Assembly: GCA_017645905.1 (NCBI GenBank)
Contig: JAGCNO010000005.1
Coordinates: forward strand, 1 to 39,612
DNA length: 39,612 bases
Source: Prevotella sp.
GTDB lineage: Bacteria > Bacteroidota > Bacteroidia > Bacteroidales > Bacteroidaceae
Reading direction: 5' to 3'
In this document: positions 1-27,875 of the stretch, piece after piece
Numbering within the stretch: the first letter of the stretch is position 1
Layout of the letters: each line of letters opens with the position of its first letter
The notes under the pieces: model-generated
The model's database searches: none
The model's input: the letters and a program-made list of their open reading frames with translations, nothing else
What the model was told of the DNA's origin: nothing
Program-made: the position numbers and the translations under genes

Positions 1-882
1 ACAGAAGAGGAGTCAGCCCTCATGCAGAAGCTCCACCACTCCTTCCGCGTCTCGGAGAAGCTGCGCAAGCACATCCGCACCATTCTGAGTCACGGCTGCA
101 TGTACAACATCTGCAACCAGAACCTGCTCTTCCATGCCTCTGTGCCGCTCAACGATGACGGAACGCTCAAGGAGGTGGAGATACTCGGAAAGAAATATCA
201 AGGCCGCCAGCTCATGCAGTACATCGGACAGCTGGTCCGTGCAGCCTTTCAGAACGACACGCCCGACGACCTCAAGGCCTACGCCAAGGACTATTTCCTC
301 TACCTCTGGTGCGGAAAGGACTCGCCCCTCTTCGACAAGTCCAAGATGGCCACCTTCGAGCGCTACTTCCTCACCGACCGCGAGACCCACCATGAGGAGA
401 AGGGCAACTACTTCCGTCTGCGCGACTCTCAGGAGGTCTGCGACCGCATCCTCGATGCCTTTGGCGTCAAAGGTCAATGGTCAATGGTCAATGGTCAATC
501 CACTCCCCGCCACATCATCAACGGTCATGTCCCCGTTCATGCAGGCTCCGGCGAGAACCCCATCAAGGCCGGTGGCCGCCTCATGGTCATCGACGGTGGC
601 TTCTCCGAGGCTTACCACAAGGAGACAGGCATCGCCGGCTACACGCTCGTCTACCACAGCCGCGGCTTCCAGCTTGTGCAGCACGAGCCCTTCACCAGCA
701 CGCAGGACGCCATCCTCCGAGGCACCGACATCAAGTCAACCACCCAAATCGTCGAGATGTCCACCCATCGCATGCTCGTCGCCGATACCGACAAGGGTGC
801 AGAGCTGCGCCGCCAGATCTCCGAGCTCAAAGACCTGCTCTACGCCTACCGTCACGGCATCATCAAGGAGAAGCGCAGCTAA
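1..882 (+). CDS. fbp: Fructose-1,6-bisphosphatase class III, C-terminal part (5' end outside window)
   Basis: The frame is open from base 1, so this is the C-terminal 293 codons of a protein whose family members are roughly 650 residues. It hydrolyses fructose 1,6-bisphosphate to fructose 6-phosphate in gluconeogenesis, in the cytoplasm. The family is recognised from the run YFLYLWCGKDSPLF, the segment RETHHEEKGNYF, HIINGHVPV, and ENPIKAGGRLMVIDGGFSEAY, typical of the Firmicutes/Bacteroidetes class III enzyme. Between DAFGV and RHIINGHVPV there is an extra stretch of about 8 residues encoded by four perfect copies of the heptamer GGTCAAT (472-499), which I do not expect in relatives. The frame stays open through it. 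No U-rich terminator is visible after the stop. Confidence 0.93.
   Translation, partial: TEEESALMQKLHHSFRVSEKLRKHIRTILSHGCMYNICNQNLLFHASVPLNDDGTLKEVEILGKKYQGRQLMQYIGQLVRAAFQNDTPDDLKAYAKDYFLYLWCGKDSPLFDKSKMATFERYFLTDRETHHEEKGNYFRLRDSQEVCDRILDAFGVKGQWSMVNGQSTPRHIINGHVPVHAGSGENPIKAGGRLMVIDGGFSEAYHKETGIAGYTLVYHSRGFQLVQHEPFTSTQDAILRGTDIKSTTQIVEMSTHRMLVADTDKGAELRRQISELKDLLYAYRHGIIKEKRS
472..499 (+). repeat. Perfect heptanucleotide tandem array (4 x GGTCAAT) inside fbp
   Basis: Four exact copies of GGTCAAT occupy 28 bases within the fbp coding sequence and encode GQWSMVNGQ. Because 7 is not a multiple of 3, gain or loss of one unit would shift the fbp frame. Confidence 0.95.
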
Positions 883-1003
883 CGACTGCGACTCGACGCT
901 GATGCGTCGGGAACGTTGGCAAGGTTCGTGGAGTGCTTGCTTAGGCAAGCGACCAAGGTCGAGTGAACGGACAACAGGCCTGTTGCCGGCAAAGTAACAA
1001 GGA
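883..1003. other. Intergenic segment with three short palindromes
   Basis: Between fbp and the period-22 array lie three small inverted repeats: CGACGC-tgat-GCGTCG (894-909), GCTTGC-ttag-GCAAGC (935-950) and the 14-bp palindrome CAACAGGCCTGTTG (972-985). None is followed by a T-run, so a terminator role is not shown. I see no gene here. Confidence 0.5.
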
Positions 1004-1080
1004 AAGGTCTTCTGTGAGAACAGACAGTCTTTTCTATGAGAAAAGGTAGTCTTTTCTGTGGGAAAAGGTAGTCTTTTCTC
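1004..1080. repeat. Period-22 hairpin repeat array A
   Basis: About 3.5 units of 22 bp. The two best copies, at 1026-1047 and 1048-1069, differ at two positions (CTATGAG versus CTGTGGG). Each unit boundary forms the inverted repeat AGAAAAG-gtagt-CTTTTCT. This is the same repeat family as at 13740, 20463, 27541 and 32508. Confidence 0.85.
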
Positions 1081-1154
1081 TGGCTTCTACAGTATGGTAA
1101 TATCTGCCTTCCTGTTTCCTCCGTTTGAAAGAAATATAAATATTCGTGAAAAAA

Positions 1155-1186
1155 CTTGGTGCTTTCGTCTTTTTGTCGTAACTTTG
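1155..1186 (+). promoter_or_regulatory. Bacteroidetes promoter for the ThiE-like gene
   Basis: CTTG at 1155-1158, 20 nt, then TAACTTTG at 1179-1186, matching the TTTG / TAnnTTTG consensus. It lies 24 bases before the ATG at 1210, which argues against the upstream in-frame ATG at 1156 as the start. Confidence 0.75.
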
Positions 1187-1209
1187 CAGTCACAAAAGGA
1201 CGGAAGGCG

Positions 1210-1818
1210 ATGAAACTCATCATCATGACAAAGCCCACTTTCTTTGTGGAAGAGGACAAGATTCTGACCACGCTCTTCGAGGAAGGGCTGGAAAACCTGC
1301 ATCTGAGCAAGCCGGAGTCGGAGCCTGTGTACTCCGAGCGGCTGCTGACGCTGCTCAGCGAAGACTACTACCGCCACATCACCGTCCACCACCATTTCTA
1401 TCTGCGCCAGGAGTATGGCCTGCGCGGCATCCACCTGAGCACTCCCTCGGAGGAGCTGCCCTATGGCTACAAGGGCCATGTGAGCTGCACGTGCCAGAAC
1501 GTGGAGGACCTGAAGCAGGCGAAGAAACGCATGGACTATGTGTTTCTGGAGACCATCTTCGACAGCAACAGCAATCCCCAGGACAAACAGACGCACACGC
1601 TGGATGAGCTGCGCGAGGCTTCACGCCGAGGGCTCATCGACCGCCATGTGTATGCCTGCGGAGGCATCACGGCCGACAATATCCGGCTGATGCGCGACCT
1701 GGGCTTCGGGGGCGTCGTCGTCTGCGGCGACCTGTGGGACCGCTTCAACATTCAGCATGGGCAGGACTTCAAGGAGCTCATCGCCCACTTCCAGAAGTTG
1801 CAACGACTGACCAATTAG
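1210..1818 (+). CDS. Thiamine phosphate synthase / TenI-like protein
   Basis: A 202-residue protein of the ThiE/TenI TIM-barrel family. Family enzymes join HMP pyrophosphate to thiazole phosphate to give thiamine phosphate, but TenI members instead help thiazole aromatisation, and I cannot separate the two here. Seen: the start MKLIIMTKPTFF, a central strand YGLRGIHLS, and near the C-terminus the phosphate-binding loop YACGGITADNIRLMRDLGFGG. The start at 1210 is chosen because the promoter occupies bases just upstream. The gene is followed 13 bases later by prs and is probably co-transcribed with it. No thiamine biosynthesis neighbours are present, which makes the exact role uncertain. Confidence 0.7.
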   Translation: MKLIIMTKPTFFVEEDKILTTLFEEGLENLHLSKPESEPVYSERLLTLLSEDYYRHITVHHHFYLRQEYGLRGIHLSTPSEELPYGYKGHVSCTCQNVEDLKQAKKRMDYVFLETIFDSNSNPQDKQTHTLDELREASRRGLIDRHVYACGGITADNIRLMRDLGFGGVVVCGDLWDRFNIQHGQDFKELIAHFQKLQRLTN

Positions 1819-1831
1819 ATAATAACTACGA

Positions 1832-2770
1832 ATGGAAATGAATAACTCTTACATGGTATTCTCCGGCACGGCAACGCGCTACCTGGCTGAGAAGATTTGC
1901 CTGAGTCTGGGTTGTCCGCTGGGCAAGTTGCAGATTACACACTTCTCCGACGGGGAGTTTGCCGTCAGCTATGAGGAGAGCATCCGAGGCCGCGACATCT
2001 TCCTGGTGCAGAGCACGTTTCCCAACAGCGACAACCTCATGGAGCTGCTGCTCATGATTGATGCTGCCAAGCGAGCCTCGGCCCGTACCATCAACGCCGT
2101 GATTCCCTATTTCGGCTGGGCGCGCCAGGACCGTAAGGACAAGCCCCGCGTGTCTATCGGCGCCAAGCTGGTGGCCGACCTGCTGAGCGTGGCGGGCGTG
2201 AACCGTGTCATCACGATGGACCTTCATGCCGACCAGATTCAGGGCTTCTTCAACGTGCCCGTAGACCATCTCTATGCCTCGGGCGTCATCCTGCCTTACT
2301 TGCAGAGCCTTCAGCTCGACGACCTGGTGATTGCCTCGCCCGACGTTGGCGGCTCGAAGCGTGCCAATGCCTACGCCAAGTATCTGGGCTGTCCGCTGGT
2401 GCTGTGCAACAAGACCCGTGCACGGGCCAACGTGGTGGACACGATGCAGATCATCGGCGAGGTGGAGGGCAAGAACGTGGTCATCGTCGACGATATGGTG
2501 GACACCGCCGGCACTATCACCAAGGCTGCCGACCTGATGATGGAGACGGGTGCCAAGAGTGTGCGCGCCTGTGCCAGCCATTGCGTCATGAGCGGCCCTG
2601 CCAGCGAGCGTGTACAGGCCAGTGCGTTGGAGGAGATGGTGTTTACCGACTCTATTCCCTACACGCAGCGATGCGCCAAGGTGAAGCAGCTCTCCGTAGC
2701 CGACATGTTTGCCGAGACCATCCGCCGCGTCATTGCCAACGAAAGTATCAGCGACCAGTATCTTGTTTAA
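1832..2770 (+). CDS. prs: Ribose-phosphate pyrophosphokinase (PRPP synthetase)
   Basis: Makes 5-phosphoribosyl-1-pyrophosphate from ribose 5-phosphate and ATP for nucleotide, His and Trp synthesis. The protein has 312 residues, normal for class I Prs. Visible motifs: FSDGEF near residue 37, IPYFGWARQDRKD near residue 95 (ATP-binding region), DLHADQIQGFF near residue 130 (catalytic His), and the PRPP loop VVIVDDMVDTAGT near residues 215-227. An in-frame ATG two codons later (1838) is an alternative start. It follows the ThiE-like gene by 13 bases and precedes the TlpA-like gene by 4, so the three probably form one transcript ending at the hairpin at 3900-3974. Confidence 0.96.
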   Translation: MEMNNSYMVFSGTATRYLAEKICLSLGCPLGKLQITHFSDGEFAVSYEESIRGRDIFLVQSTFPNSDNLMELLLMIDAAKRASARTINAVIPYFGWARQDRKDKPRVSIGAKLVADLLSVAGVNRVITMDLHADQIQGFFNVPVDHLYASGVILPYLQSLQLDDLVIASPDVGGSKRANAYAKYLGCPLVLCNKTRARANVVDTMQIIGEVEGKNVVIVDDMVDTAGTITKAADLMMETGAKSVRACASHCVMSGPASERVQASALEEMVFTDSIPYTQRCAKVKQLSVADMFAETIRRVIANESISDQYLV

Positions 2771-2774
2771 TAAT

Positions 2775-3872
2775 ATGAATATGAAGAAAACATTTGTGGG
2801 ACTCTGTGTGATGGCCCTTGCGATGGCTGCCTGTCAGCCCGACGGTTATAAGGTGAATGGTGTTGCCGAAGGATTCAAGGACGGCGATACCTTGTATTTC
2901 TTTAAGGAGTTGGGGGCAGACGAACCCTCCGACACCCTCATTGTGCAGAACGGGAAGTTCAAGCTTGAGGGTCCTGTTGACTCTGTGACGCTGGCCTCCG
3001 TAGTGTCGGCCGACGGCGCTTCTGGCGCACTCTTCTTTACGGAGAAGGGTAACATCAACGTTACTGTGTCGAGAAACGGTATGCCGAAGATTGGCGGTAC
3101 GAGGTCGAACGATGCTTGGCAGGAGGTGAACGACTTGCAGGCGAAGTATAGCGTGAAGTTCGACTCCATCATGGCTCCCATCTACTTAGGCAATCCCGAC
3201 GATGCCTCCCAGCAGAAGGTTATGGAAGTATATCAGGAAATCGAGCGCGAGATGATTGGCAAGATTGTAGACATCGCTGAGAAGAACATCGACAACGAGC
3301 TGGGCTATTTCGTGGTGTCGAGCATGGGCAGCAGCGGAGGTATGGACCCCGAGCGCCTTATGGGGCTCATCAGCAAGATGCCTGGCGAGTTCCAGCAGCG
3401 TAAGGACATTGCCGACATTGTGAAGATGATTAACGGTGCCGAGGCTCTCTCCAGAGGAAAGGTGATGCCCGACTTCACGTTGCCCACTCCCGACGGCGGA
3501 GAACTGAGCGCGCTCAGCGAAGTGGCCAAGAACAAGATTACCGTCATCGACTTCTGGGCAAAGTGGTGCAATCCCTGTTGCGACGAGATGCCCTTCATGG
3601 TGAGCCTCTACGAGAAGTACAAGGACAAGGGACTCGGAATTCTCGGCGTGTCGCTCGATACTGACAAGGACTCATGGATGAAGGGAATTGCCGACTTGCA
3701 CATAACATGGCCCCAGGTGAGCGACCTGAAAGGCTGGAAGAGTCCTGTAGTAGACCTCTATCAGGTAAACGCCATACCCTATACCGTCATCGTAGACCAG
3801 AAGGGCACCATCCTGGACAAGGGCCTCAGAGCCGAGAGCCTGGAGATTTTCATTGAAGAGGCGCTGAAGTAA
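2775..3872 (+). CDS. TlpA/ResA-like thioredoxin-fold lipoprotein with N-terminal DUF4369-like domain
   Basis: A predicted periplasmic, lipid-anchored thiol-disulfide oxidoreductase. The N-terminus MKKTFVGLCVMALAMAAC is a lipoprotein signal with lipobox AMAAC. Residues about 25-130 resemble the DUF4369 beta domain common in Bacteroidetes TlpA proteins. The C-terminal 140 residues are an AhpC/TSA-thioredoxin fold with VIDFWAKWCNPCCDEMPF, so the CxxC pair is Cys-Asn-Pro-Cys with an additional adjacent Cys, which is less usual. The cis-Pro loop is seen as AIPYTVIVD. Translation could begin at 2775 or 2781 (MNMKK). It is 4 bases after prs. The substrate is unknown. Confidence 0.88.
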   Translation: MNMKKTFVGLCVMALAMAACQPDGYKVNGVAEGFKDGDTLYFFKELGADEPSDTLIVQNGKFKLEGPVDSVTLASVVSADGASGALFFTEKGNINVTVSRNGMPKIGGTRSNDAWQEVNDLQAKYSVKFDSIMAPIYLGNPDDASQQKVMEVYQEIEREMIGKIVDIAEKNIDNELGYFVVSSMGSSGGMDPERLMGLISKMPGEFQQRKDIADIVKMINGAEALSRGKVMPDFTLPTPDGGELSALSEVAKNKITVIDFWAKWCNPCCDEMPFMVSLYEKYKDKGLGILGVSLDTDKDSWMKGIADLHITWPQVSDLKGWKSPVVDLYQVNAIPYTVIVDQKGTILDKGLRAESLEIFIEEALK

Positions 3873-3899
3873 AGTCCATCAGCTAATCGGGCGTCCTTC

Positions 3900-3974
3900 G
3901 GAATCAGAGACAAGCGAGATTCCCTACAGAGGTGGTTTTCTGCCACATGTAGGGAATCTCGCTTGTTTGATTCC
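3900..3974. terminator. Strong bidirectional hairpin between convergent genes
   Basis: A perfect 19-bp inverted repeat (3910-3928 with 3948-3966) surrounds an inner stem GTGG...CCAC and is extended outward by GGAATCA / TGATTCC. It separates the prs-tlpA unit from convergent panD. There is no long T-run on either side, so termination is inferred from position and stem strength. Confidence 0.7.
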
Positions 3975-4010
3975 TAAACTCTCGCTTGCCTGATTCCGCA
4001 AACGATTGTC

Positions 4011-4352
4011 CTATACCCTGTTGTCCTTCGGGAACACTACCGACGGCTTGAAGCTTTTAGCCTCTTCAAAGTCCATGAGTGCATAAGAGATGATGATGAT
4101 GGTGTCGCCCACCTGCACCCTTCGTGCTGCCGCGCCGTTGAGGCACACGCAACCGCTGCCGCGCTCGCCCTTTATAATGTAGGTCTCAAAGCGCTCGCCG
4201 TTGTTGTTGTCCAACACCTGAACCTTTTCGCCGGCAATCATGTTGGCGGCGTCCATCAGGTCTTCGTCGATGGTGATGCTGCCCATGTAGTTCAGGTTGG
4301 CTTCCGTCACCTGAACACAATGCAGCTTTGACTTCATTACTTCTATCAACAC
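4011..4352 (-). CDS. panD: Aspartate 1-decarboxylase (pyruvoyl enzyme)
   Basis: Decarboxylates L-aspartate to beta-alanine for pantothenate and CoA synthesis. The protein is 113 residues, within the normal range for PanD. The self-cleavage site is visible as YMGSITID with Gly24-Ser25 at the classical positions; Ser25 becomes the pyruvoyl group. Also seen: [13 protein letters not shown] at the N-terminus and [20 protein letters not shown]. panC, the next enzyme consuming beta-alanine, lies upstream on the same strand with a 49-bp gap, so the two probably form a panC-panD operon. The gap carries a period-7 array. Confidence 0.96.
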
Positions 4353-4362
4353 CTTATTGCTA

Positions 4363-4397
4363 TTTACGATTTACAGTTTTTCGATTTACGATTTGTT
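4363..4397. repeat. Period-7 array (TTTACGA type) between panC and panD
   Basis: Five consecutive 7-bp units: TTTACGA, TTTACAG, TTTTTCG, ATTTACG, ATTTGTT. Same unit family as at 5255, 6290 and 14535. Confidence 0.85.
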
Positions 4398-5250: not shown

Positions 5251-5254
5251 TATA

Positions 5255-5310
5255 TTTACGATTTACGATTTACGATTTACGAATTACGATTAACGAATTT
5301 GCAATTTACG
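5255..5310. repeat. Period-7 array, eight units, upstream of panC
   Basis: Eight uninterrupted 7-bp units: four perfect TTTACGA (5255-5282), then ATTACGA, TTAACGA, ATTTGCA and ATTTACG. It occupies the panC leader or promoter region. Confidence 0.93.
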
Positions 5311-5434
5311 TTTTCAGGCTGCAAAATAACAACAAATTTCCCAAATATGGAAAAAAAAGACTAAAAATAAGCCTATAAAATGTCACAAATTCCTAAAAAT
5401 GCTCACTTTGTATGGTTTTATGCAATTATTTTAG

Positions 5435-8469: not shown

Positions 8470-9321
8470 ATGGTACTCATTGCCGACAGCGGGAGCACAA
8501 AGACCGACTGGATGCTCAGAGGGGAGACTGCCACCCGGCAGTTTCACACACAAGGCATCAACCCCATTCACCAGAGCGACGAGCAAATCCTTGACATCCT
8601 GCGTGGAGAGCTCCTTCCGCAGCTCATTTCATTGAACCAGTTATCGGCCATAAAATTCTACGGCAGCGGTGTCCGTCCTGATCAGGAGGCGCGTATGGAG
8701 CGGTTGCTGCGGGAAGTATTTCAATTACATTCCTCTCACCCCACACCCCGCACCCCCCACCCCCAGATAGAAGCCCACAGCGACTTGCTCGGTGCTGCCC
8801 GTGCCCTCTGTGGTGATAGCGAGGGCTTGGCGTGCATACTCGGCACAGGGGCGAACTCCTGTCTCTACGACGGCGAGAAGATTGTAGCCAACACGCCGCC
8901 CCTGGGCTATATCCTTGGCGACGAGGGAAGTGGTGCCGTGCTTGGCAAGCGTTTCCTCAATGCGCTCTATAAGGGACAGTTAAGCAATGAGACAAAGTCT
9001 GATTTTGAAGCAGAAATGCGGATGACGCTCACGGAGGTCATTGAACGCGTTTACCGACAGTCCTTGCCCAACCGCTGGCTCGCCTCCCTGTCGCCTTTCA
9101 TTCACAGCCGTCTCGACGACCCAGCCGTAGAGGCTCTTGTTGTCGATAACTTCTCCGACTTCATCGCCCGCAATATCGAGCCTTATCATCGCCGTGACCT
9201 GCCCCTTCAGGCTGTCGGAAGCATCGCCTTCTACTATCGCGACCAGCTCTCCCAGGCCGCAAATAAAGTTGGCTACGCCGTGGGAAAGATTCTTCGCAGT
9301 CCCTTGGACGGTATGTTGTGA
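8470..9321 (+). CDS. BadF/BadG-type ATPase, N-acetylglucosamine kinase-like
   Basis: A 283-residue member of the ASKHA sugar-kinase fold, close in plan to eukaryotic-type GlcNAc kinases. Motifs: phosphate-1 loop IADSGSTKTDWML at residues 4-16, CILGTGANSCLYDG near residue 135 (phosphate-2), GYILGDEGSGAVLGKRFLN near residue 155 and QAVGSIAFYY near residue 249 (adenosine region). It probably phosphorylates an amino sugar in cell-wall or glycan recycling. Residues about 89-98 (HSSHPTPRTPHP) are encoded by a period-7 array at 8734-8763 and look like a foreign loop insertion. The stop at 9321 ends the operon. Confidence 0.85.
   Translation: MVLIADSGSTKTDWMLRGETATRQFHTQGINPIHQSDEQILDILRGELLPQLISLNQLSAIKFYGSGVRPDQEARMERLLREVFQLHSSHPTPRTPHPQIEAHSDLLGAARALCGDSEGLACILGTGANSCLYDGEKIVANTPPLGYILGDEGSGAVLGKRFLNALYKGQLSNETKSDFEAEMRMTLTEVIERVYRQSLPNRWLASLSPFIHSRLDDPAVEALVVDNFSDFIARNIEPYHRRDLPLQAVGSIAFYYRDQLSQAANKVGYAVGKILRSPLDGML
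8734..8763. repeat. Degenerate period-7 array inside the kinase gene
   Basis: CACC recurs at 8737, 8744, 8751 and 8758, exactly 7 bases apart, in a C-rich tract of four units. It encodes a Pro/His/Ser/Thr-rich loop. Confidence 0.85.
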
Positions 9322-13694: not shown

Positions 13695-13739
13695 TTATGT
13701 TTGTCTTTGAGTTAGTCCTAAGGGGTCTCTGAGAAAAAG

Positions 13740-13827
13740 CCGTTTTTTCTATGAGAAAAGATAGTTCTTTCTATGAGATTAATCCGTTTAATCTATGGGA
13801 AAAAGCCGTTCTTTCTCCGAGCCAGGA
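13740..13827. repeat. Period-22 hairpin repeat array B
   Basis: Four 22-bp units at 13740, 13762, 13784 and 13806. Arms covary: one junction reads AGATTAA-tccg-TTTAATCT while others read AGAAAAA-gccg-TTTTTTCT, so changes on one side are matched on the other. It lies between the hydrolase gene and the rpsP terminator. Confidence 0.88.
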
Positions 13828-14526: not shown

Positions 14527-14534
14527 CTTATTTA

Positions 14535-14569
14535 TTTACGATTTACGTATTTTCGATTTACGTTTTACA
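14535..14569. repeat. Period-7 array in the rpsP / GT2 divergent region
   Basis: Five 7-bp units: TTTACGA, TTTACGT, ATTTTCG, ATTTACG, TTTTACA. It overlaps the expected upstream part of the rpsP promoter. Confidence 0.85.
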
Positions 14570-15871: not shown

Positions 15872-15876
15872 TTTTA

Positions 15877-15972
15877 GTGAATAGTTTATAATGAATAGTG
15901 AATAGTTGGCTGCGCATTACAACTATTCACTATAAACCATTTACTATTCACTCTTCACTCTTCACTATACAG
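15877..15972. repeat. Pair of inverted period-7 arrays between convergent rhaM and GT genes
   Basis: Left array 15877-15904: GTGAATA, GTTTATA, ATGAATA, GTGAATA. Right array 15924-15972: TATTCAC, TATAAAC, CATTTAC, TATTCAC, TCTTCAC, TCTTCAC, TATACAG. The two are roughly reverse complements around a 19-nt centre and could fold into a long hairpin that may terminate both genes. The right array encodes the last residues and stop of the minus-strand glycosyltransferase. Confidence 0.85.
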
Positions 15973-17049
15973 CTGTTCGTATTGGCGGGCCACCTTCAGG
16001 TAGTCGTGGTGGCGGAGGACATATTCCTGACTTTGCCGTTTTAGCGTAGCGATGCGCTCGGGGTGGAGCACTAACAGCTCCAGCTCGTGGCGCACGCTTT
16101 CGTAATTGGGCTGCACGTTGACAATGGGCCGCAGCTCTTTCTCGTTAAGTATTTCGTAGTTTTCTTCCTCACCACCTCCGATGACGATGATGCCCTTCGA
16201 CATGGCGAGCAGGGCGTTCATAGCCGGGGTGTAGGAGTAGAGCTGGTCCATGATGGCATCGCTATTATCCATCAGCCGTTGGTATTCCTCAAAGGGAACG
16301 CCCTCCACCTTGATGATTTCCAGCAGGTCGGGGTGTTGCCGTTGTACGTCCTCGGCAGCGCGGAGCATGATGTCGGTGCCTTTGTAGGCGCTGCGGCCGC
16401 GGCTGATGCCGATGAAGAGTTTAAGGGGTGAGGAGTGAGGGGTGAGGGGTGAGAGGTTAGTTATGGGCTTTATGGGAAAAGGAATAAAGGTGGTCTTTTC
16501 GGGAAACAGGGGCTGGTAGCAGGCGTAGTTCTCGTAGGGTGTGGCCACGATGGCGTCGCAGTCGTTGGCAATAAGCTGGTTCAGTCGGCCCTTGGGTGTG
16601 TCGAGCCAGTCGTCTCGGTCGCGCAGGGCGACGGGGTCGGTACGCAACTGTTCTCCGATGTTGAAGTCGCTGTAGCGAAGAGGCTTGCGCGTGATGTTCT
16701 CATGCACCCAGTAGTAGTCCATGCCCAAAGCACAGAGCACCATCTTCTTGTTATGTCGCCGCAGGTAGCGGTAGACAGGACGTATACGCTCGGCCTTCAG
16801 CTCGAGGAACATAGGATTGATGAGCTGTACCACATCGTAGCCCCGCCAATGGGGCAGCTGGCAAAGAACTTTCGCCATGAGACGGATGCCGCCCAGCTTA
16901 CCAGGCGTGCGGGCAAGGTCAATGTCTCGGGGATAGTCTTTCCAGAAGTCGCCGTTAGAGGCTACCGTCACCTCATGACCCAGCTGGCGCAGACCCTGCG
17001 CCAGCGTATTATGAACGTTGCTATATTCGCCTAAGAGTAGTATCTTCAT
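15955..17049 (-). CDS. GT-B fold glycosyltransferase (GT1/GT4-like)
   Basis: A 364-residue glycosyltransferase with the N-terminal Rossmann start MKILLLGEYSNVHNTLAQGLRQLGHEV and a C-terminal donor-binding half starting LKLFIGISRGRSAYKGTDIML near residue 209, then DQLYSYTPAMNALLAMSKG with the usual Glu region replaced by GGGEEENYEI. Its ATG overlaps the upstream GT2 stop by 4 bases. It is last in a three-gene minus-strand operon probably building a surface polysaccharide. Residues about 199-208 (LSPLTPHSSP) come from a period-7 array in the inter-domain linker, and the final SEE plus stop come from another array at 15945-15965. Confidence 0.85.
   Translation of the reverse strand: MKILLLGEYSNVHNTLAQGLRQLGHEVTVASNGDFWKDYPRDIDLARTPGKLGGIRLMAKVLCQLPHWRGYDVVQLINPMFLELKAERIRPVYRYLRRHNKKMVLCALGMDYYWVHENITRKPLRYSDFNIGEQLRTDPVALRDRDDWLDTPKGRLNQLIANDCDAIVATPYENYACYQPLFPEKTTFIPFPIKPITNLSPLTPHSSPLKLFIGISRGRSAYKGTDIMLRAAEDVQRQHPDLLEIIKVEGVPFEEYQRLMDNSDAIMDQLYSYTPAMNALLAMSKGIIVIGGGEEENYEILNEKELRPIVNVQPNYESVRHELELLVLHPERIATLKRQSQEYVLRHHDYLKVARQYEQLYSEE
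16428..16455. repeat. Period-7 array (GTGAGGG type) inside the glycosyltransferase gene
   Basis: GTGA recurs at 16428, 16435, 16442 and 16449, giving four 7-bp units (GTGAGGA, GTGAGGG, GTGAGGG, GTGAGAG). The reverse strand encodes a Pro/Ser/His linker between the two GT-B domains. Confidence 0.92.
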
Positions 17050-20387: not shown

Positions 20388-20550
20388 CGAGAAAGAGCCG
20401 TTCTTGCTCCATTTCATTACGCAAGCGTCTCCTTCGTCGCCGAGCGCTTTCGATTCGAATAAGCCGTTCTTTCTATGGGAAAGAGCCGTTCTTTCCGTGA
20501 GAAAAAGCCGTTCTTTCTATGGGAAAGAGCCGTTCTTTCGAAATGAAAGG
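20388..20550. repeat. Period-22 hairpin repeat array C
   Basis: Four contiguous 22-bp units at 20463, 20485, 20507 and 20529, each beginning GCCGTTCTTTC. A detached unit lies at 20388-20408, separated by 54 bp of unrelated sequence. The array runs directly into the period-21 array at 20571. Confidence 0.92.
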
Positions 20551-20570
20551 TCGGATGCATTGTTTAAACT

Positions 20571-20656
20571 ACGTCGATGTTTGTAAAAACCACGACGGCG
20601 TTTGTAGAAACAACGTCGGCGTTTGTATAAACCACGTTGCGGTTTTAACTTTTTTG
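20571..20656. repeat. Period-21 repeat array, copy 1
   Basis: Three 21-bp units (20571-20591, 20592-20612, 20613-20633) and a terminal partial unit ending GGTTTTAACTTTTTTG. Each unit contains GTTTGTAnAAAC, a near palindrome. It is joined to array C through a 20-bp stretch also found at 27614-27633. Confidence 0.92.
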
Positions 20657-21771: not shown

Positions 21772-23547
21772 ATGAGTTGCGATATGAGAAAATGGTTTAT
21801 TCTGATTGCTGTTGCACTAAGCATTTCTGTTTGCGCTATGGGAGCTGAAAGGACTGTCAGGTTGAGGATTGTGGAGACGAGCGACGTTCACGGCTGCTTC
21901 TTCCCCTACGACTTTGTGGAGGGCAAGCCTCTGAAGGGGTCGCTTGCTCGCGTGAGTACATATATTAATAGGTTGCGCCGCGAGTATGGCGACCATCTGC
22001 TGTTGCTCGACAACGGCGACATACTGCAGGGACAGCCCACGTGCTATTGGTCGAACTATGTGGAGATTGGCCGGGAGAACATCGCTGCACAGGTGGTCAA
22101 CTACATGGGCTACGACGTGGCGGCCATAGGCAATCACGACGTGGAGACCGGCCACGCCGTCTACGACAAGTGGATAGGCGAACTGCGATGTCCTGTGGTG
22201 GGGGCGAACATCATTGACACGCTCACCAACGAGCCCTACGTCAGACCCTATGTTACTTTTGAGCGTGATGGCGTGAAGATTGCCGTCATCGGTCTGCTCA
22301 CACCCACCATCGCCTGCTGGCTCAACGAGTCGCTGTGGAGCGGGCTGCGGTTTGAGGAGATGACAGCCTCTGCCCGAAAGTGGATGCAGGTGGTGCGTGA
22401 GCAGGAGAAGCCCGACCTCGTCGTTGGTCTTTTCCACAGCGGCAAGGAGGGCGGACTGACCCTGCCCGGCGGCATCGAGGAGGATGCTACGGCACGTGTG
22501 GCCCGTGAGGTACCGGGTTTCGACATCATCTTCTACGGCCATGACCACATCGTCCACAACGAATGGATTCTCACCTCTCACCCCTCATCCCTCACCCCTG
22601 ATAGTGTGCTGACCCTCGACCCTTCGAGCTCGGCACTCAACGTGGCCGATGCGCAGATAGAACTGACCATCGACGGGCAGGGAAAAGTAATCAGGAAAAA
22701 CATCACGGGTGATATTGTCAGCGTTCGAGACGAGGAAGTAGACCGAAAGATGCTGAGCCGCTTCTATGCACAGATGGACAGCATCAAGACTTTCGTGGGC
22801 CGACGCATCGGAAGGTTCGCCGAGGGAGCCACCACGCGTGACAGTTATTTCGGCTCGTCAGCTTTTACCGACTTCATCCACAACGTGCAGCTTGACATTT
22901 CCGGCGCTGACATTTCGTTCAACGCACCGCTCTCCTTCGACAGCCGAATAGAGCCAGGCGACGTCACCGTGGCCGATATGTTCAAGCTTTATCGCTTTGA
23001 GAATCAGTACTACGTTATGAACCTCACAGGCAGCGAGATACGCCGTTTCTTGGAGGAGAGCTACGCCCGCTGGGTGAATACCATGACCTCGGCAGACGAC
23101 CACCTGTTGCTGCTCAGCAAGAAGACCTATGGCGACCAGCAGCGCATGGGGTTTCTGAACTACACCTTTAACTTCGACTCTGCCGCTGGAATAGACTATG
23201 AGGTCGACGTGACCAAGCCCGTCGGGCAGAAGGTGCGAATCCTCGGTATGTCGGACGGCACGCCATTCCAGGAAGACCGTATATATAAAGTGGTGATGAA
23301 CAGCTACCGAGGCAACGGCGGCGGCGACCTTCTGACGAAGGGCGCTGGCATAGAAAAGGACGACATCGACGACCGTATCATCTACCAGTCGCCACTCGAC
23401 CTTCGTCACTACATCATGAAATATATTGAAGAAAAAGGAACGGTCACGCCACGACCCAATAACAACTGGCGATTCATTCCCGAAGAATGGGTAAGCCCGG
23501 CAGCAGCGCGTGACCGACAGCTGCTCTTCGGACCTTTTTTGCACTAA
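21772..23547 (+). CDS. UshA-like metallophosphatase / 5'-nucleotidase
   Basis: A 591-residue secreted enzyme of the 5'-nucleotidase / UDP-sugar hydrolase / 2',3'-cyclic phosphodiesterase family. The signal is MRKWFILIAVALSISVCAMG if translation starts at 21784; 21772 gives four more residues. Metal ligands are visible: ETSDVHGC near residue 37 (DxH), LLDNGDILQGQ near residue 83, AIGNHDVETG near residue 121, GLFHSGKEGG near residue 220 and FYGHDHIVHN near residue 256 (GHxH). Residues about 310-580 form the C-terminal substrate-binding domain (SAFTDFIHNVQ, GNGGGDLLTKGAG). A Ser/Pro loop (residues 267-276) between the two domains is encoded by a period-7 array. Likely role: periplasmic nucleotide salvage. 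Confidence 0.92.
   Translation: MSCDMRKWFILIAVALSISVCAMGAERTVRLRIVETSDVHGCFFPYDFVEGKPLKGSLARVSTYINRLRREYGDHLLLLDNGDILQGQPTCYWSNYVEIGRENIAAQVVNYMGYDVAAIGNHDVETGHAVYDKWIGELRCPVVGANIIDTLTNEPYVRPYVTFERDGVKIAVIGLLTPTIACWLNESLWSGLRFEEMTASARKWMQVVREQEKPDLVVGLFHSGKEGGLTLPGGIEEDATARVAREVPGFDIIFYGHDHIVHNEWILTSHPSSLTPDSVLTLDPSSSALNVADAQIELTIDGQGKVIRKNITGDIVSVRDEEVDRKMLSRFYAQMDSIKTFVGRRIGRFAEGATTRDSYFGSSAFTDFIHNVQLDISGADISFNAPLSFDSRIEPGDVTVADMFKLYRFENQYYVMNLTGSEIRRFLEESYARWVNTMTSADDHLLLLSKKTYGDQQRMGFLNYTFNFDSAAGIDYEVDVTKPVGQKVRILGMSDGTPFQEDRIYKVVMNSYRGNGGGDLLTKGAGIEKDDIDDRIIYQSPLDLRHYIMKYIEEKGTVTPRPNNNWRFIPEEWVSPAAARDRQLLFGPFLH
22571..22598. repeat. Period-7 array (TCACCCC type) inside the nucleotidase gene
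   Basis: TCA recurs at 22571, 22578, 22585 and 22592, giving four 7-bp units (TCACCTC, TCACCCC, TCATCCC, TCACCCC). It encodes LTSHPSSLTP between the catalytic and C-terminal domains. Confidence 0.92.
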
Positions 23548-23823: not shown

Positions 23824-24053
23824 ATATCCTCCACCTTGATGACACGCCCGAGGCCATTCTTAATGTCTTCTTCTCCTTGTCGGATTATTTCAACCATTTT
23901 TGGCGAAGACATAATATACTCTGTCTCGTCCATTGTCTGTTTCTGTGCAGTCAATTTCTTGAGGTACTTAACGGCCTTCTTCATCAGGTTTTCATCTTCT
24001 GCGATGATACTCAACTCACGGAAAAGTTCCGCATTCATCTGTAGTGCTGTCAT
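23814..24053 (-). CDS. Probable antitoxin partner of YoeB
   Basis: A 79-residue acidic/basic helical protein, MTALQMNAELFRELSIIAED at the start and GRVIKVEDIWK at the end. I assign it as antitoxin from position (immediately upstream, overlapping the toxin by 10 bases), size and the C-terminal amphipathic tail. It does not read like the classical YefM/Phd N-terminus, so it may be a different antitoxin family common in Bacteroidetes. No promoter of the usual type is clear upstream. Confidence 0.72.
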   Translation of the reverse strand: MTALQMNAELFRELSIIAEDENLMKKAVKYLKKLTAQKQTMDETEYIMSSPKMVEIIRQGEEDIKNGLGRVIKVEDIWK

Positions 24054-24103
24054 AGCTGTGTGACCGTTTGCTACTGTTTATAATGAAAATAATGATTTCG
24101 TGA

Positions 24104-24763
24104 TTAAGGCATATCTCTCAATACCCTGCCACTCCAGACAGGCATGGTCTGGCCGGCGGGACTGAAATCGATGAGGGTCATCTCGAAGATGAGGAGACTG
24201 TAGGGCGGAATGGAAGTTCCGCTTCCCGTAGCACCGTAGGCCAGTTCTGTGGGGATGTACACTCGCCAATGGTCTCCGCGGCGCATGTGCTGCAGGGCGG
24301 TACTGAAGCCACTAATCATTGTTGGGTTGGAAATCAGGAACTTGGCATTGGCATTGGTCTTGTTGTTGTAGGTGCCGTAGACAGTGCCGTCGAACACTTT
24401 GCCTTTAGCATAAGTCTTGGAGGGAATGAGGCGTCCCTGATAGGCTACACGTACAGAGTCGGTAAAGGCAGGCAAGTCGCCCTCAGGGTCGCCGCTCTCA
24501 ATGACCTTCACGTAGATGTATTCTGTAGCCGCACCCTCGGTGGTCTCGTTCAGCGAGTAGTTCTTGATGCGCTGCCAGCCTGGCTTTTTAAGAGAGTCGT
24601 TGACCACGCTGGCAAAATACTGCTCATTGCGCACCTGCCAGTTGGCGTACTCGTCGTCGTCAGACGCAGATTCGCTACAGGAGACCCCCATCCAGCCTCC
24701 CCCCATGAGGGGGAGGAGTATATAGATTATTGCAGTCAGTTGTTTAAGAATCTTTTGCTTCAT
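24104..24763 (-). CDS. FKBP-type peptidyl-prolyl cis-trans isomerase lipoprotein
   Basis: A 219-residue predicted lipoprotein PPIase. From about residue 95 the FKBP fold is recognisable: DSVRVAYQGRLIPSKTYAKGKVFDGT, ISGFSTALQHMRRGDHWRVYIPTELAYG and the closing IPPYSLLIFEMTLIDF. Such proteins act as folding catalysts in the periplasm. The lipobox is GVSC with Cys29. Unusually, residues about 13-28, most of the hydrophobic signal, are encoded by one half of a GC-rich inverted repeat element (24683-24725), so the export signal seems to have been rebuilt by an insertion. It is the last gene after glyS on the minus strand, 51 bases apart. Confidence 0.9.
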   Translation of the reverse strand: MKQKILKQLTAIIYILLPLMGGGWMGVSCSESASDDDEYANWQVRNEQYFASVVNDSLKKPGWQRIKNYSLNETTEGAATEYIYVKVIESGDPEGDLPAFTDSVRVAYQGRLIPSKTYAKGKVFDGTVYGTYNNKTNANAKFLISNPTMISGFSTALQHMRRGDHWRVYIPTELAYGATGSGTSIPPYSLLIFEMTLIDFSPAGQTMPVWSGRVLRDMP

Positions 24764-24813
24764 CTCTTTTACTATCTACTCCCCTCCATTCAGGGAGGGG
24801 TCGGGGGTGGGTC
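24683..24813. repeat. Paired inverted GC-rich REP-like element, FKBP/glyS copy
   Basis: The left half (24683-24725) and right half (24779-24813) are related reverse complements: GACCC..CC, a small C-rich/G-rich palindrome, then GGAGTA. About 53 bp of single-copy sequence between them contains the FKBP start codon. The right half abuts the glyS stop codon (24815-24817). It is the same family as in rimO (31444-31556). Confidence 0.8.
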
Positions 24814-24814
24814 T

Positions 24815-26353
24815 TTACAACTTCTTTAGCAGCGAGGCGATGCTTACCTTGTCCTCGATGATGCCGTTAAGGTCCTCGATACGGACGCGCTCCTGCTCCA
24901 TCGTGTCGCGGAAGCGGAGGGTGACACATCCGTCATTCAAAGTCTCGTGGTCTACGGTGACGCAGTAAGGTGTACCGATGGCATCCTGGCGGCGGTAGCG
25001 CTTGCCAATAGAGTCCTTCTCGTCATACTGGCAAGTGAAGTGGTACTTCAGCTGGTCGATAATCTCGCGGGCCTTCTCGGGCAGACCGTCCTTCTTCACT
25101 AATGGCATCACGGCACACTTCACGGGAGCCAAGGCTGCGGGCAACTTCAGCACCACGCGGGTCTCGCCGCCCTCGAGCTTCTCCTCCTCGTAGGAGTGGC
25201 ACATAATCGAGAGGAACATACGGTCAACGCCGATAGACGTCTCGATGACATACGGTGTATAGCTTTCGTTGGTCATCGGGTCGAAGTACTTGATGCTCTT
25301 GCCCGAATATTTCTCATGCTGGCTGAGGTCGAAGTTTGTACGAGAGTGGATTCCTTCCACCTCCTTGAATCCGAAGGGCATCTTAAACTCGATGTCGGTA
25401 GCGGCGTTGGCATAGTGGGCCAGCTTGTCATGGTCGTGGAAGCGGTAGTTCTCTGCACCGAATCCCAAAGCCTGGTGCCACTTCATGCGTGTCTCCTTCC
25501 ATTTGGGGAACCAATCCAGCTCGGTGCCGGGCTTCACGAAGAACTGCATCTCCATCTGCTCGAACTCTCTCATGCGGAAGATGAACTGGCGGGCCACAAT
25601 CTCGTTGCGGAAGGCCTTACCAATCTGAGCGATGCCGAAGGGAATCTTCATGCGGCCGGTCTTCTGCACGTTCAGGTAGTTCACGAAGATGCCCTGTGCC
25701 GTCTCCGGACGCAGGTAGATTTTCATCGAACCGTCGGCGGTCGAGCCCATCTCGGTCGAGAACATCAGGTTGAACTGGCGCACGTCGGTCCAGTTCTTCG
25801 TGCCGCTGATGGGGTCGACGATCTCCTCGTCCAGTATAATCTGTTTCAGCTCCTCCAGGTCGGGTCCCTGCATGGCGGCGGCGTAGCGCTCATGGAGGGC
25901 GTCGCGCTTGGCTTTTGTCTCAGCCACGCGGGGCGAGGTGGCCAGGTACTGCTCCTCGTTGAAGGCATCGCCGAAGCGCTTGCGGGCCTTTTCCACTTCC
26001 TTCTGTATCTTCTCGTCGTACTTGGCTATCTGGTCCTCGATGAGCACGTCGGCACGATAGCGCTTCTTCGAGTCGCGGTTATCGATGAGCGGGTCGTTGA
26101 ATGCATCTACGTGGCCTGAGGCCTTCCAGATGGTGGGGTGCATGAAGATGGCGGAGTCGATGCCCACGATGTTCTCGTGGAGCATGGTCATGGCCTTCCA
26201 CCAGTACTGCTTGATGTTGTTTTTCAGCTCCACGCCGTTCTGGCCGTAGTCGTAAACGGCTCCCAGTCCGTCGTAGATTTCACTTGAGGGAAACACAAAC
26301 CCATATTCTTTGCAATGGGAAACAATCTTCTTGAAAACGTCTTCTTGTGCCAT
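24815..26353 (-). CDS. glyS: Glycyl-tRNA synthetase (homodimeric, class II)
   Basis: Charges tRNA-Gly. The 512-residue length and absence of a separate beta subunit match the alpha2 type of Bacteroidetes. Motifs: N-terminal KIVSHCKEYGFVFPSSEIYDGLGAVYDYG, MHPTIWKASGHVDAF near residue 71, YLRPETAQGIFVNYLNV near residue 219 and IAQIGKAFRNEI near residue 247 (motif 2 FRNE region), VIETSIGVDRMFLS near residue 371 (motif 3) and the anticodon domain starting AALAPVKCAVMPL near residue 407. Promoter at 26397-26428. Confidence 0.97.
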   Translation of the reverse strand: MAQEDVFKKIVSHCKEYGFVFPSSEIYDGLGAVYDYGQNGVELKNNIKQYWWKAMTMLHENIVGIDSAIFMHPTIWKASGHVDAFNDPLIDNRDSKKRYRADVLIEDQIAKYDEKIQKEVEKARKRFGDAFNEEQYLATSPRVAETKAKRDALHERYAAAMQGPDLEELKQIILDEEIVDPISGTKNWTDVRQFNLMFSTEMGSTADGSMKIYLRPETAQGIFVNYLNVQKTGRMKIPFGIAQIGKAFRNEIVARQFIFRMREFEQMEMQFFVKPGTELDWFPKWKETRMKWHQALGFGAENYRFHDHDKLAHYANAATDIEFKMPFGFKEVEGIHSRTNFDLSQHEKYSGKSIKYFDPMTNESYTPYVIETSIGVDRMFLSIMCHSYEEEKLEGGETRVVLKLPAALAPVKCAVMPLVKKDGLPEKAREIIDQLKYHFTCQYDEKDSIGKRYRRQDAIGTPYCVTVDHETLNDGCVTLRFRDTMEQERVRIEDLNGIIEDKVSIASLLKKL

Positions 26354-26396
26354 AAGTTATTTGCAATTTGACAATTTACTATTTAAAATTTGGGCG

Positions 26397-26428
26397 CAAA
26401 GGTACTTATAATAATTGTAACGGCCAAT
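26397..26428 (-). promoter_or_regulatory. Promoter of glyS
   Basis: Minus strand ATTG (26428-26425), 20 nt, TACCTTTG (26404-26397); a leader of about 40 nt to the ATG at 26353 contains imperfect AATTTAC-type repeats. Confidence 0.75.
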
Positions 26429-26461
26429 TTATTTCACATACTTTCATATTTCACGCTGCTC

Positions 26462-26489
26462 TCATCTCTCACCTCTCACCCCTCACTTC
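26462..26489. repeat. Period-7 array (TCACCCC type) at the 3' end of xerD
   Basis: TCA at 26462, 26469, 26476 and 26483 gives four units (TCATCTC, TCACCTC, TCACCCC, TCACTTC). The last unit supplies the xerD stop codon (TGA on the minus strand, 26483-26485). Confidence 0.9.
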
Positions 26490-27472
26490 ATAATATTACG
26501 CGGGTGATGTAGCAGTACCTCCTGACGCAGGGTCTGCATGGAGAGGTGGGTGTAGATTTCGGTAGTGCCTATCGACTCATGTCCTAAAAGTGCCTGAATG
26601 ACGCGCAGGTCGGCACCTCCCTCTAAAAGGGCGGTGGCGAAGGAGTGGCGCAGGGTATGTGGCGAAATGGTCTTTTGCAGTCCTGCCTCCTCGGCCTGTC
26701 GTTTGAGCATGATGAGAATCATCACCCGCGTGAGATGTGCCCCTCGGCGGTTCAAGAAGACGTAGTCCTCCTCGCCCTTCTTGATTTTCAACGTCTTTCG
26801 CCAAGGCATGTAGTTGCCTATCTCGTGGAGTGCCCGCTCGCTGATGGGCACCAGCCGCTCCTTTGCTCCTTTGCCCATGATGCGGACGTAGCGTTCCTCG
26901 GCATAGATGTCAGAGAACTTCAGACTTACCAGCTCTGACACGCGCAGACCGCAGGAGAAGAGCACCTCGATGATGGCGCGGTTGCGATGGCCTTCGGGCT
27001 TTGAGAGGTCGATGGAGTCCTCCAGAAGGTCAACCTCGGCGGGCGTGAGGAACTCCGGCAGGTGCTCGCCCACGACGGGGTTCTCCAACAACTCAGAGGG
27101 GTCGCTCTCCACGTAACCGTCTAAGAGCATGAAGCGAAAGAGTGACTTCACCCCGCTGATGATGCGGCACGTGGAGCGCGGCCCGATGCCGATGTCGTGG
27201 AGGTAGTGCAGGAACAGCTGCAGGTCGTCGAGTGTCACTTCCGTAAGCACCTTGGACTTCGTCCGAGCCTGCTCACGCTCGGCAGAGCTGATGGAGCCAT
27301 CGCTCTGCTCTTGCTTATTCGCAGCCTTGCCGCTGCCCTCTAAAAAGGTGATCAGCTTCGAGGCGTCGAGCAGGTAGGCATCAAGCGTGTTCGCCGACAC
27401 GTTGCGTTGCAGGCGCAGGTAGCGTCGGTAGGCCGTCATGATGTTCTTGTCGGTCAGAGAAATCTCATTCAT
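26483..27472 (-). CDS. xerD: Tyrosine recombinase XerD
   Basis: Site-specific recombinase for chromosome dimer resolution with XerC. 329 residues; catalytic residues R177 (SCGLRVSEL), K201 region (GKGAKERLVP), H272 and R275 (HTLRHSFA), H298 (LLGHESI) and Y307 (TEIYTHL) are all present. XerD is normally about 300 residues; here residues 46-76 form an extra hydrophilic stretch (SGKAANKQEQSDGSISSAER) inside the N-terminal core-binding domain. The start at 27472 is selected because a perfect promoter (TTTG-N20-TACCTTTG) ends 7 bases upstream; the in-frame ATG at 27523 would lie upstream of it. Confidence 0.93.
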   Translation of the reverse strand: MNEISLTDKNIMTAYRRYLRLQRNVSANTLDAYLLDASKLITFLEGSGKAANKQEQSDGSISSAEREQARTKSKVLTEVTLDDLQLFLHYLHDIGIGPRSTCRIISGVKSLFRFMLLDGYVESDPSELLENPVVGEHLPEFLTPAEVDLLEDSIDLSKPEGHRNRAIIEVLFSCGLRVSELVSLKFSDIYAEERYVRIMGKGAKERLVPISERALHEIGNYMPWRKTLKIKKGEEDYVFLNRRGAHLTRVMILIMLKRQAEEAGLQKTISPHTLRHSFATALLEGGADLRVIQALLGHESIGTTEIYTHLSMQTLRQEVLLHHPRNIMK

Positions 27473-27479
27473 CGTGGCG

Positions 27480-27511
27480 CAAAGGTACTGCTTTTGGGCC
27501 AAACCGCCAAA
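27480..27511 (-). promoter_or_regulatory. Promoter of xerD
   Basis: Minus strand TTTG (27511-27508), 20 nt, TACCTTTG (27487-27480), followed by 7 nt and the ATG. A perfect consensus match with a predicted near-leaderless transcript. Confidence 0.87.
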
Positions 27512-27540
27512 TAAAAAGGTCACAAAAAGAGGGGACTGCG

Positions 27541-27613
27541 AGAATAAGCCATTCTTTCTGGTAGGGAAAGCCGTTCTTATTGGCAGAGAAAACGGTTCTC
27601 TTTAAGCGAAAGG
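27541..27613. repeat. Period-22 hairpin repeat array D (degenerate)
   Basis: About three units related to GCCGTTCTTTC...GAAA: AAGCCATTCTTTC, AAGCCGTTCTTAT and AACGGTTCTCTT, with matching upstream GAGAATAA/GGGAAAG/GAGAAAA arms. It runs directly into the period-21 array. Confidence 0.75.
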
Positions 27614-27633
27614 CCGGATGTGTTGTTAAAACT

Positions 27634-27719
27634 ACGTCGACGTTTGTATAAACCACGACGTAGTTTGTAAAAACCTCGACGTAGTTTGTAGAAACCACGA
27701 CGTAGTTTTAACTTTTTGG
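27634..27719. repeat. Period-21 repeat array, copy 2
   Basis: Three 21-bp units (27634-27654, 27655-27675, 27676-27696) and a terminal unit ending GTTTTAACTTTTTGG. Units contain GTTTGTAnAAACC-ACGACGTA. Organisation is identical to copy 1 at 20571-20656. Confidence 0.92.
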
Positions 27720-27808
27720 TTCCTGCTCAGTTTTTCGCAAAGAAAGGAAAGAATCTTTCGTAATTTGAATAATTCATGTTACACCATTTGTAAAGAAATG
27801 TTATAGCA

Positions 27809-27840
27809 TTTGTGGATGTCGTTTTTTCTTTGTACTTTTG
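27809..27840 (+). promoter_or_regulatory. Promoter of ftsY
   Basis: TTTG (27809-27812), 20 nt, TACTTTTG (27833-27840). The ATG used (27882) is 41 nt downstream. Confidence 0.82.
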
Positions 27841-27847
27841 CCGCCAC

Positions 27848-27875
27848 TTATCAATCATCACTCATCACTTATCAA
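27848..27875. repeat. Period-7 array in the ftsY leader
   Basis: Four 7-bp units in mirror order: TTATCAA, TCATCAC, TCATCAC, TTATCAA. It lies in the predicted 5' untranslated region, 6 bases before the ATG. Confidence 0.88.

Follow-up and report, generated by a model that had tools for sequence, protein, structure and literature searches.

Heptanucleotide tandem arrays in a Prevotella genome: an excess of period 7, recurrent units and unit differences between species at fixed sites

Short tandem arrays with a spacing of 7 bp are scattered through the genes and spacers of a 39,612-nt stretch of Prevotella sp. DNA (GenBank assembly GCA_017645905.1, contig JAGCNO010000005.1), referred to here as the window. 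They raise the question of whether the period itself is special, and which process would create such arrays, alter their units and sort them. As contig C89, the window belongs to a 3.40-Mb genome assembly of 181 contigs (87.5% complete, 5.6% contaminated). Using Tandem Repeats Finder (TRF, score of at least 30), we detected 12 period-7 arrays of 24-61 bp in the window (466-499, 4362-4394, 5254-5314 with 8.6 copies, 8737-8764, 14534-14568, 15875-15906, 15943-15966, 16424-16457, 22570-22599, 26359-26391, 26459-26486 and 27845-27874). A preliminary description of the window had counted at least eleven. All of its sites were recovered except 6290, where about three imperfect units stay below the TRF score of 30; the array at 26359-26391 had been overlooked.

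The scan was extended to 20 stretches of the same genome with fixed coordinates, 395 kb in all and 435 kb together with the window. Because the sampled contigs were known carriers of an ATTTACG match, this sample leans towards the ATTTACG family. In the 435 kb, TRF returned 2, 68, 15 and 21 non-overlapping arrays at periods 6, 7, 8 and 9, respectively, and a Markov simulation yielded 0 period-7 arrays against the 68 real ones. In the 395-kb sample, exact runs with 10 or more matches numbered 8, 40, 2 and 8 at the same periods, with 0 at period 7 in the simulation. The check proposed along with the preliminary description, a test of period 7 against 6, 8 and 9, thus gave a clear excess. The observation of period-7 arrays is confirmed, and it is the period itself that is special, not mere repetition. 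Across the whole genome, the 14-mer ATTTACGATTTACG (up to one mismatch) has 135 matches, overlapping matches inside one array being counted more than once, versus 3 for its reversed control.

Periods 21 (22 exact runs) and 22 (96 exact runs) are likewise in excess in the 395-kb sample, mainly via other repeat families. Arrays with a 22-bp unit of the GAAAGAACGGCTTATTCTATGA type, a near-palindrome plus spacer, are found in the window at 1010-1079, 13726-13816, 20447-20541, 27546-27599 and 32508-32555 and are numerous in the sampled loci L021-L040; TRF counts 48 period-22 arrays in the 435 kb, and their exact runs outnumber those of the heptads. Beside them, 21-bp arrays of the TTGTATAAACCACG... 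/ TTGTAAAAACCACG... type are located at 20560-20637 and 27623-27708. A small period-8 family is formed by octanucleotide AAACGACC-type arrays at L024:6229, L024:6715, L039:1255, L039:9077 and L040:2355.

The repeat units had been described as unrelated to each other. This holds in so far as several classes exist: with rotations and strands merged, 28 unit classes can be told apart among the 68 arrays. The units nevertheless recur far above chance, and a few of them make up much of the set, AAATCGT coming first with 13 arrays. The expectation is 65.7 classes for random genomic 7-mers (minimum 60 in 2,000 draws) and 58.6 (minimum 49) for units derived from short local period-7 seeds. The units thus do not form a single family, but they are not unrelated either. 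Among the species sampled, the leading units vary from one to the next. A search for 8-mers enriched near the arrays mostly recovered the arrays themselves. Three AAATGAG arrays (L024:8681, L024:16738 and L039:8726) lie inside a dispersed repeat; they have about 60-80 bp of flanking sequence in common, and 22-bp arrays adjoin them.

How stable units and sites are can be read from a relative. The nearest named genome found was Prevotella sp. RGIG5135 (G076, locus L197), an assembly from sheep abomasum, whose FBPase gene is 87% identical to that of the window at the DNA level and of which two contigs are collinear with most of the window. Between aligned flanks, 22 of the 68 arrays could be placed in the RGIG5135 stretches, the outcome being judged by eye. 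The same unit was kept at six of the 22 sites (window 466 and 4362, L028:12072, L029:1248 in degenerate form, L033:6636 and L033:13515). At another six, RGIG5135 carries a different heptad unit (window 5254 and 14534, L025:16977, L029:17111, L033:10347 and L036:14807), which at 5254 and L025:16977 is close to the unit of this genome. A tandem repeat of another length occupies two sites (window 8737 and 16424). Site 14534 is the clearest illustration: 35 bp of ATTTACG units here correspond to 35 bp of AATTGAG units in RGIG5135, within near-identical flanks. Between flanks that are likewise alike, locus L033:10727 has 47 bp of (ATAAACA)n in this genome versus 11 bp, ATAATCAATAA, in RGIG5135, equivalent to about 1.5 units; growth from such a seed would be the simpler reading, with loss in RGIG5135 as the alternative.

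Arrays have also been gained within conserved genes. Gene calls, made with a simple hexamer model, place 35 of the 68 arrays in intergenic regions and 33 in coding sequence. In 58 of the 68 arrays, one strand carries stop codons and the other none (shuffled mean, 38.0); among the 33 coding arrays, 17 have the open strand in gene direction, five have stops on both strands and three on neither. The (GTCAATG)n array at 466-499 (+) lies inside an FBPase_2 gene (Pfam; ORF 22-882, +) and constitutes a nine-codon in-frame gain, which is absent from all 29 same-genus orthologues read (59 other genomes had a match). The codons before the repeat read GTCAAAGGTC. RGIG5135 has this array too, with one unit base different and with GTCAAAG and GTCAATG units interleaved. 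A second FBPase-like stretch at G000:C74:4282-5128, 75% identical to the window gene, represents a paralogue or assembly contamination. The (CTCACCC)n array at 22570-22599 (+) replaces a short loop of a 5'-nucleotidase-type protein (Pfam; ORF 21772-23547, +) and is absent from all 29 aligned same-genus relatives (45 other genomes had a match) and from RGIG5135. A plasmid search using one window gene gave no match.

Four arrays had been said to lie within conserved coding sequence. All four (466, 8737, 16424 and 22570) do lie in called frames, but Pfam names only the hosts of 466 and 22570. The CACCCC-type array at 8737-8764 (+) is located inside ORF 8470-9321 (+), which has no Pfam match; RGIG5135 has repeats of about 11 bp there (CTTCACTTCCC/CTTCACTCCCC, read by eye). 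The (CACCCCT)n array at 16424-16457 (-) is located inside ORF 15955-17049 (-) with its open strand in sense, and this ORF is glycosyltransferase-like by a sub-cutoff Pfam match only; at its site RGIG5135 has a 9/18-bp repeat of the TTGATGGGT type.

In front of genes, the CGTAAAT family shows a pronounced orientation. The 72 distinct CGTAAAT clusters that we compiled with 250-nt flanks come partly from the window and the sample and partly from another 56 loci chosen for holding the pattern. For 43 of the 72 clusters, an ATG-started ORF of at least 60 codons begins no more than 25 nt away on the sense side; the same holds on the antisense side for one cluster, and for 464 of 4,000 random positions. 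Admitting any start codon within 60 nt, the numbers are 60 sense versus 19 antisense, and a rescan limited to ATG scored 46 of the 72 clusters on the sense side. The commonest distance to the ATG is 7 nt (13 cases), followed by 4 and 22 nt (four each), and adenines recur with the heptad period before the ATG. In Flavobacterium, A at -3 and -12/-13 and little structure favour initiation, and Bacteroidetes mRNAs lack Shine-Dalgarno sequences (PMC6847099). Since initiation in Flavobacterium is aided by adenines and low structure, it is plausible, by analogy, that CGTAAAT arrays could act in translation leaders. A promoter link was considered and dropped, as the bias of TAnnTTTG is too weak: the motif occurs within 80 nt upstream of CGTAAAT on the sense strand of 15 of 72 clusters versus five on the other side, and within 120 nt of the start of 85 of 271 called genes.

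Within the window, three arrays belong to this family. That at 4362-4394 (-) lies between ORF 4011-4352 (-) and the pantoate ligase gene (-), in sense orientation and upstream of a start; RGIG5135 shares it and has further repeats beside it. The array at 5254-5314 (-) precedes the called pantoate ligase start by 3 nt and corresponds to an ATTTACT-type array in RGIG5135. The 35-bp array at 14534-14568 (-) is located in a divergent spacer.

Array load differs strongly between species. In stretches of 40-435 kb from 17 genomes, TRF found 0 to 33.5 period-7 arrays per 100 kb, with 15.6 in this genome, the maximum in RGIG5135 and 0 in G003, G010, G012 and G040. Some of these stretches were picked near known matches, and small samples mislead: G010 and G018 yielded 0 and 2.1 per 100 kb, yet have 152 and 364 genome-wide matches to a C/T-rich heptad pattern. 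This pattern (up to three mismatches) has at least 48 matches in 11 of 23 same-genus genomes and at most three in the other 12; only this contrast between species was used, because the reversed control has itself period 7 and is often high (265 versus 332 matches in this genome). In the same 23 genomes, ATTTACGATTTACG (up to one mismatch) occurs 16 and 10 times in two and at most four times in the other 21. Thus, the comparison with relatives that the preliminary description had suggested revealed large period-7 differences between species. Exact CGTAAAT x3 occurs in at least 119 stretches from several phyla. Within the phylum, it is found (up to one mismatch) in 18 of 395 genomes, our own included, and its reversed control in four; the idea of a ubiquitous CGTAAAT unit was rejected on this scattered, not general, distribution.

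The remaining arrays of the window mark gene ends and starts. At 15875-15966, two inverted heptad arrays (TAGTGAA.../...TTCACTA) enclose a short loop between convergent genes, and the right-hand array supplies the stop of ORF 15955-17049 (-); RGIG5135 has only 5 nt in their place. A palindromic element consisting of inverted array pairs round a GCGCA core was suggested by a few sites but rejected: of the neighbouring same-unit pairs within 150 bp, seven were inverted and 17 direct, and the cores differed. The (GTGAGAG)n array at 26459-26486 (-) lies at the 3' end of ORF 26483-27523 (-). The claim that two arrays provide stop codons is thus borne out: both minus-strand ORFs, 15955-17049 and 26483-27523, terminate within arrays. 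The TAAATTG-type array at 26359-26391 (-) is found 5 nt before ORF 24815-26353 (-) starts. RGIG5135 contig C83 has at this site a 122-nt segment with inverted repeats (CCCCCTAA... / ...TTAGGGGG) instead of an array. Finally, the TCATCAC-type array at 27845-27874 (-) precedes the called start of gene 27882-28832 (+) by 7 nt; like 26459-26486, it is unplaced in RGIG5135.

A segment common to two RGIG5135 sites led to the search for a 26-bp core, a different kind of repeat. With up to three mismatches, RGIG5135 has 21 copies (12 exact; reversed control, 0), G050 has three, this genome has one, and G053 and G057 have none. In RGIG5135, 16 of the 21 copies are flanked on one or both sides by a rotation of AACTCTC no more than 30 nt away and the other five are not; 17 copies lie inside ORFs of at least 150 codons, in all three frames. 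Among the host proteins are ProA, GcvP and a MiaB/RimO-like protein; in the match to the best solved homologue, the insert falls in a gap or stays unmatched. A looser 30-mer (CTCGGCCGAAGGACGCTTGCnnnGCAAGAA) occurs in 71 of 299 same-genus genomes, with 0 for the reversed control among the matches listed. From these 71 genomes we read 30 loci, one per genome (L355-L384); L330-L354 are from RGIG5135, G000 and G050. ORFs of at least 150 codons contain 22 of the 30, and 20 of these 22 are read in one frame as R-SAEGRLQGK-N or close variants. The core of about 30 bp thus mostly encodes RSAEGRLQGKN and forms in-frame inserts in unrelated proteins, among them a 10-residue insert in a GltD homologue. 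A period-7 run of at least 10 lies within 60 nt of only one of the 30 (L374).

Its separate occurrence and in-frame insertion suggest that the core is an independent small mobile element, which in RGIG5135 would either travel with AACTCTC arrays or insert into them. At the two sites from which the core was first recognized, this genome has an array and no core, which favours insertion into existing arrays. The core folds no better than shuffled sequence (71 of 200 as good). Among core variants, which were found by pattern and are therefore biased, most stem pairs are kept, with a few paired changes, but pairing is lost in 34 of 43 variants at one of the nine stem positions tested.

Which of these features belong to known systems? 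Cyanobacterial short tandemly repeated repetitive sequences are heptanucleotides, with period 7 as here. Heptanucleotide repeats represent an abundant class in many bacteria (PMC4679880, PMC4692102), and PMC4692102 mentions those of Calothrix. As cited in both papers, Mrazek 2007 found heptanucleotides to be the commonest class of long simple sequence repeats and proposed slippage, 7 nt matching the contact length of the polymerase. With exact 7-nt units in excess over other lengths in the 435 kb, our arrays fall into this class; the passages on that work in these two papers do not mention unit change at orthologous sites. The preliminary description knew of no equivalent account for Bacteroidales, but heptads are not a new phenomenon there: TAACTGA direct repeats were reported in five Bacteroidetes including Paludibacter (MacGregor 2015, PMC4679880). 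These resemble our arrays in having a 7-nt unit in few copies, dispersed and often before starts in one orientation. TAACTGA repeats have stops in all frames on one strand and an open other strand; in our set, stops on one strand only occur in 58 of 68 arrays, but in 20 of 28 distinct units. In that account, there is one fixed unit and near variants are rare as direct repeats, in contrast to the 28 classes, many coding arrays and differing units at fixed sites found here. The TAACTGA class is not among the 28 of the 435-kb sample, and a comparable forward placement upstream of starts was seen for the CGTAAAT family.

The G-rich heptads GGGAATC and GGGGA(C/T)T of Xanthomonas and Nostoc (Rehm 2015, PMC4692102) form arrays of about four units at many loci and, as here, vary in length and sequence between close species. 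Unlike our arrays, they were chosen for quadruplex potential and are mainly non-coding in that account. A G run of at least three per unit does not characterize the present set, in which the consensus unit contains at least three consecutive G or C in three of 28 classes and eight of 68 arrays. Rickettsia palindromic elements (PMC10969869) share in-frame insertion in unrelated conserved genes with the FBPase and 5'-nucleotidase arrays and with the core in ProA, GltD and GcvP. They are about 150 bp long, compared with arrays of 24-61 bp or a core of about 30 bp here, and instead of a palindrome of that size with a conserved peptide we found only short hairpins, no stabler than shuffles. The core may be regarded as a much smaller analogue of these elements. 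The BrickBuilt miniature inverted-repeat transposable element of Porphyromonas is built of 23-nt units in tandem, with inverted repeats as leader and tail, which sets it apart from our 7-nt arrays; the array flanks of this genome contain no common leader or tail. Within the open-access literature, to which the search was confined, we found no account of heptad arrays in Prevotella or of this case and, judged by titles and abstract openings, no paper on in-frame palindromic elements in Prevotella. As far as the cited texts go, the heptad excess (Bacteroidetes included), the slippage idea, start-proximal placement and stop-rich strands are already described; unit replacement at fixed sites, the CGTAAAT start-codon register, the in-frame gains and the separate 30-bp in-frame element are new.

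The best account of these findings, to which we give about an even chance, is 7-nt duplication combined with unit copying or unit preference and followed by sorting through selection. The arrays would form a fast-turning, genome-wide population of heptanucleotide tandem arrays, made during replication or repair by a process that strongly prefers steps of 7 nt. An array would arise as a short insertion or grow from one or two imperfect units, and the unit would then be homogenised within it. The unit repertoire common to the loci of the genome suggests copying between arrays, e.g., by template switching at short matches, or a built-in unit preference. Selection would then act by position. In genes, the strand without stops would mostly be tolerated, as in-frame gains in loops; before starts, the A-rich CGTAAAT strand would be kept in the orientation of the mRNA, the likely reason being that translation in Bacteroidetes starts on A-rich leaders with little structure; and where genes end, a stop-bearing strand would do no harm. 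What we observed directly are the excess of period 7, two in-frame gains, the orientation before starts and the unit differences at fixed sites; we infer from them a step in polymerization or repair, copying between arrays and an advantage for translation. Gains at clean sites and the differences between species support the earlier suggestion of a process favouring 7-bp spacing, but sequence counts too, as the few units and the orientation and position of CGTAAAT indicate.

Several results weigh against this combined account. Unit recurrence could stem from preference or selection rather than copying, and arrays of period 8 and 9 exist as well. RGIG5135 has no array at eight of the 22 placed sites (window 15875, 22570 and 26359, L029:1527, L029:16837, L033:10727, L036:6033 and L036:7218). 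In a flank test with TRF on both sides, 45 of the 68 arrays remained unplaced in the RGIG5135 stretches compared. A period-7 array was present in RGIG5135 at 10 of the other 23 sites (5 of 11 intergenic, 5 of 12 coding) versus 9 of 70 intergenic and 53 of 1,048 coding control positions (Fisher p 0.019 and 0.0002). This excess counts in favour of the account, but the controls were neither matched for local variability nor independent, and part of the excess may therefore only mean that arrays occupy variable places. This test was used instead of one for co-occurrence in gaps between high-scoring segment pairs, which offered only eight segments and was uninformative. Nine of the 68 arrays share a flank with another locus, five of them through the 22-bp repeat (counted among the printed pairs). 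Eight of the 33 coding arrays carry the stop-bearing strand in gene direction, where caller errors or imperfect arrays are possible. One-strand stops are weak by distinct unit (20 of 28), and all-frame stop codons as a selected function were set aside for this reason. The start bias is weaker in other taxa, with 25 sense versus 6 antisense starts within 20 nt for 113 CGTAAAT x3 arrays at 100 loci. The core occurs mostly without arrays in other species, and so may have inserted into existing AACTCTC arrays.

Could local polymerase slippage alone, each array growing from its own chance seed with no copying between loci, explain the data? The seed of about 1.5 units in RGIG5135 at L033:10727, the GTCAAAGGTC codons of FBPase with the interleaved units in RGIG5135, and the lack of shared flanks for most arrays of this genome would fit. 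Such growth predicts the 58.6 classes given above, far more than the 28 found, and it accounts poorly for different units at fixed sites and for the 4 of 17 genomes without a period-7 array in the stretches sampled; we consider it possible, though not probable. The heptad array might instead be the visible part of a miniature element that tolerates in-frame insertion and is moved by a transposase. The 21 core copies of RGIG5135, their frequent AACTCTC neighbours, their long host ORFs in all three frames, the inserts unmatched or gapped in solved homologues and some paired changes point in this direction. This reading is nonetheless unlikely, given that the core occurs once in the window's genome and mostly alone in other species, that most arrays of this genome lack a shared flank, that neighbouring same-unit arrays are direct rather than inverted (17 versus 7), that the core folds no better than its shuffles, and that one stem position is unpaired in most variants. 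We are more doubtful still about a trans-acting process that would rewrite arrays in place, keeping site, length and period and swapping the unit from a species-specific library. Least of all do we expect the heptads to be a regulatory family bound by a translation or RNA-binding factor, as was proposed for TAACTGA in Beggiatoaceae. The sense orientation of CGTAAAT with 7 nt as the commonest ATG distance, the periodic A-rich profile before the ATG and the like position described for TAACTGA repeats would agree with it. About half of the arrays (33 of 68) are called inside coding sequence, however, units differ at some sites between two close species, and the start rule was assessed for CGTAAAT only.

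The preference for heptads in some bacteria is an old puzzle, and the genus Prevotella offers a natural experiment on it, with array-rich and array-poor genomes, alignable close relatives and unit differences between agreeing flanks. With such genomes and sites, slippage, copying and selection are separable by resequencing. The arrays inside genes show how conserved enzymes acquire peptide loops, and the CGTAAAT leaders are a simple test case for translation initiation without Shine-Dalgarno pairing.

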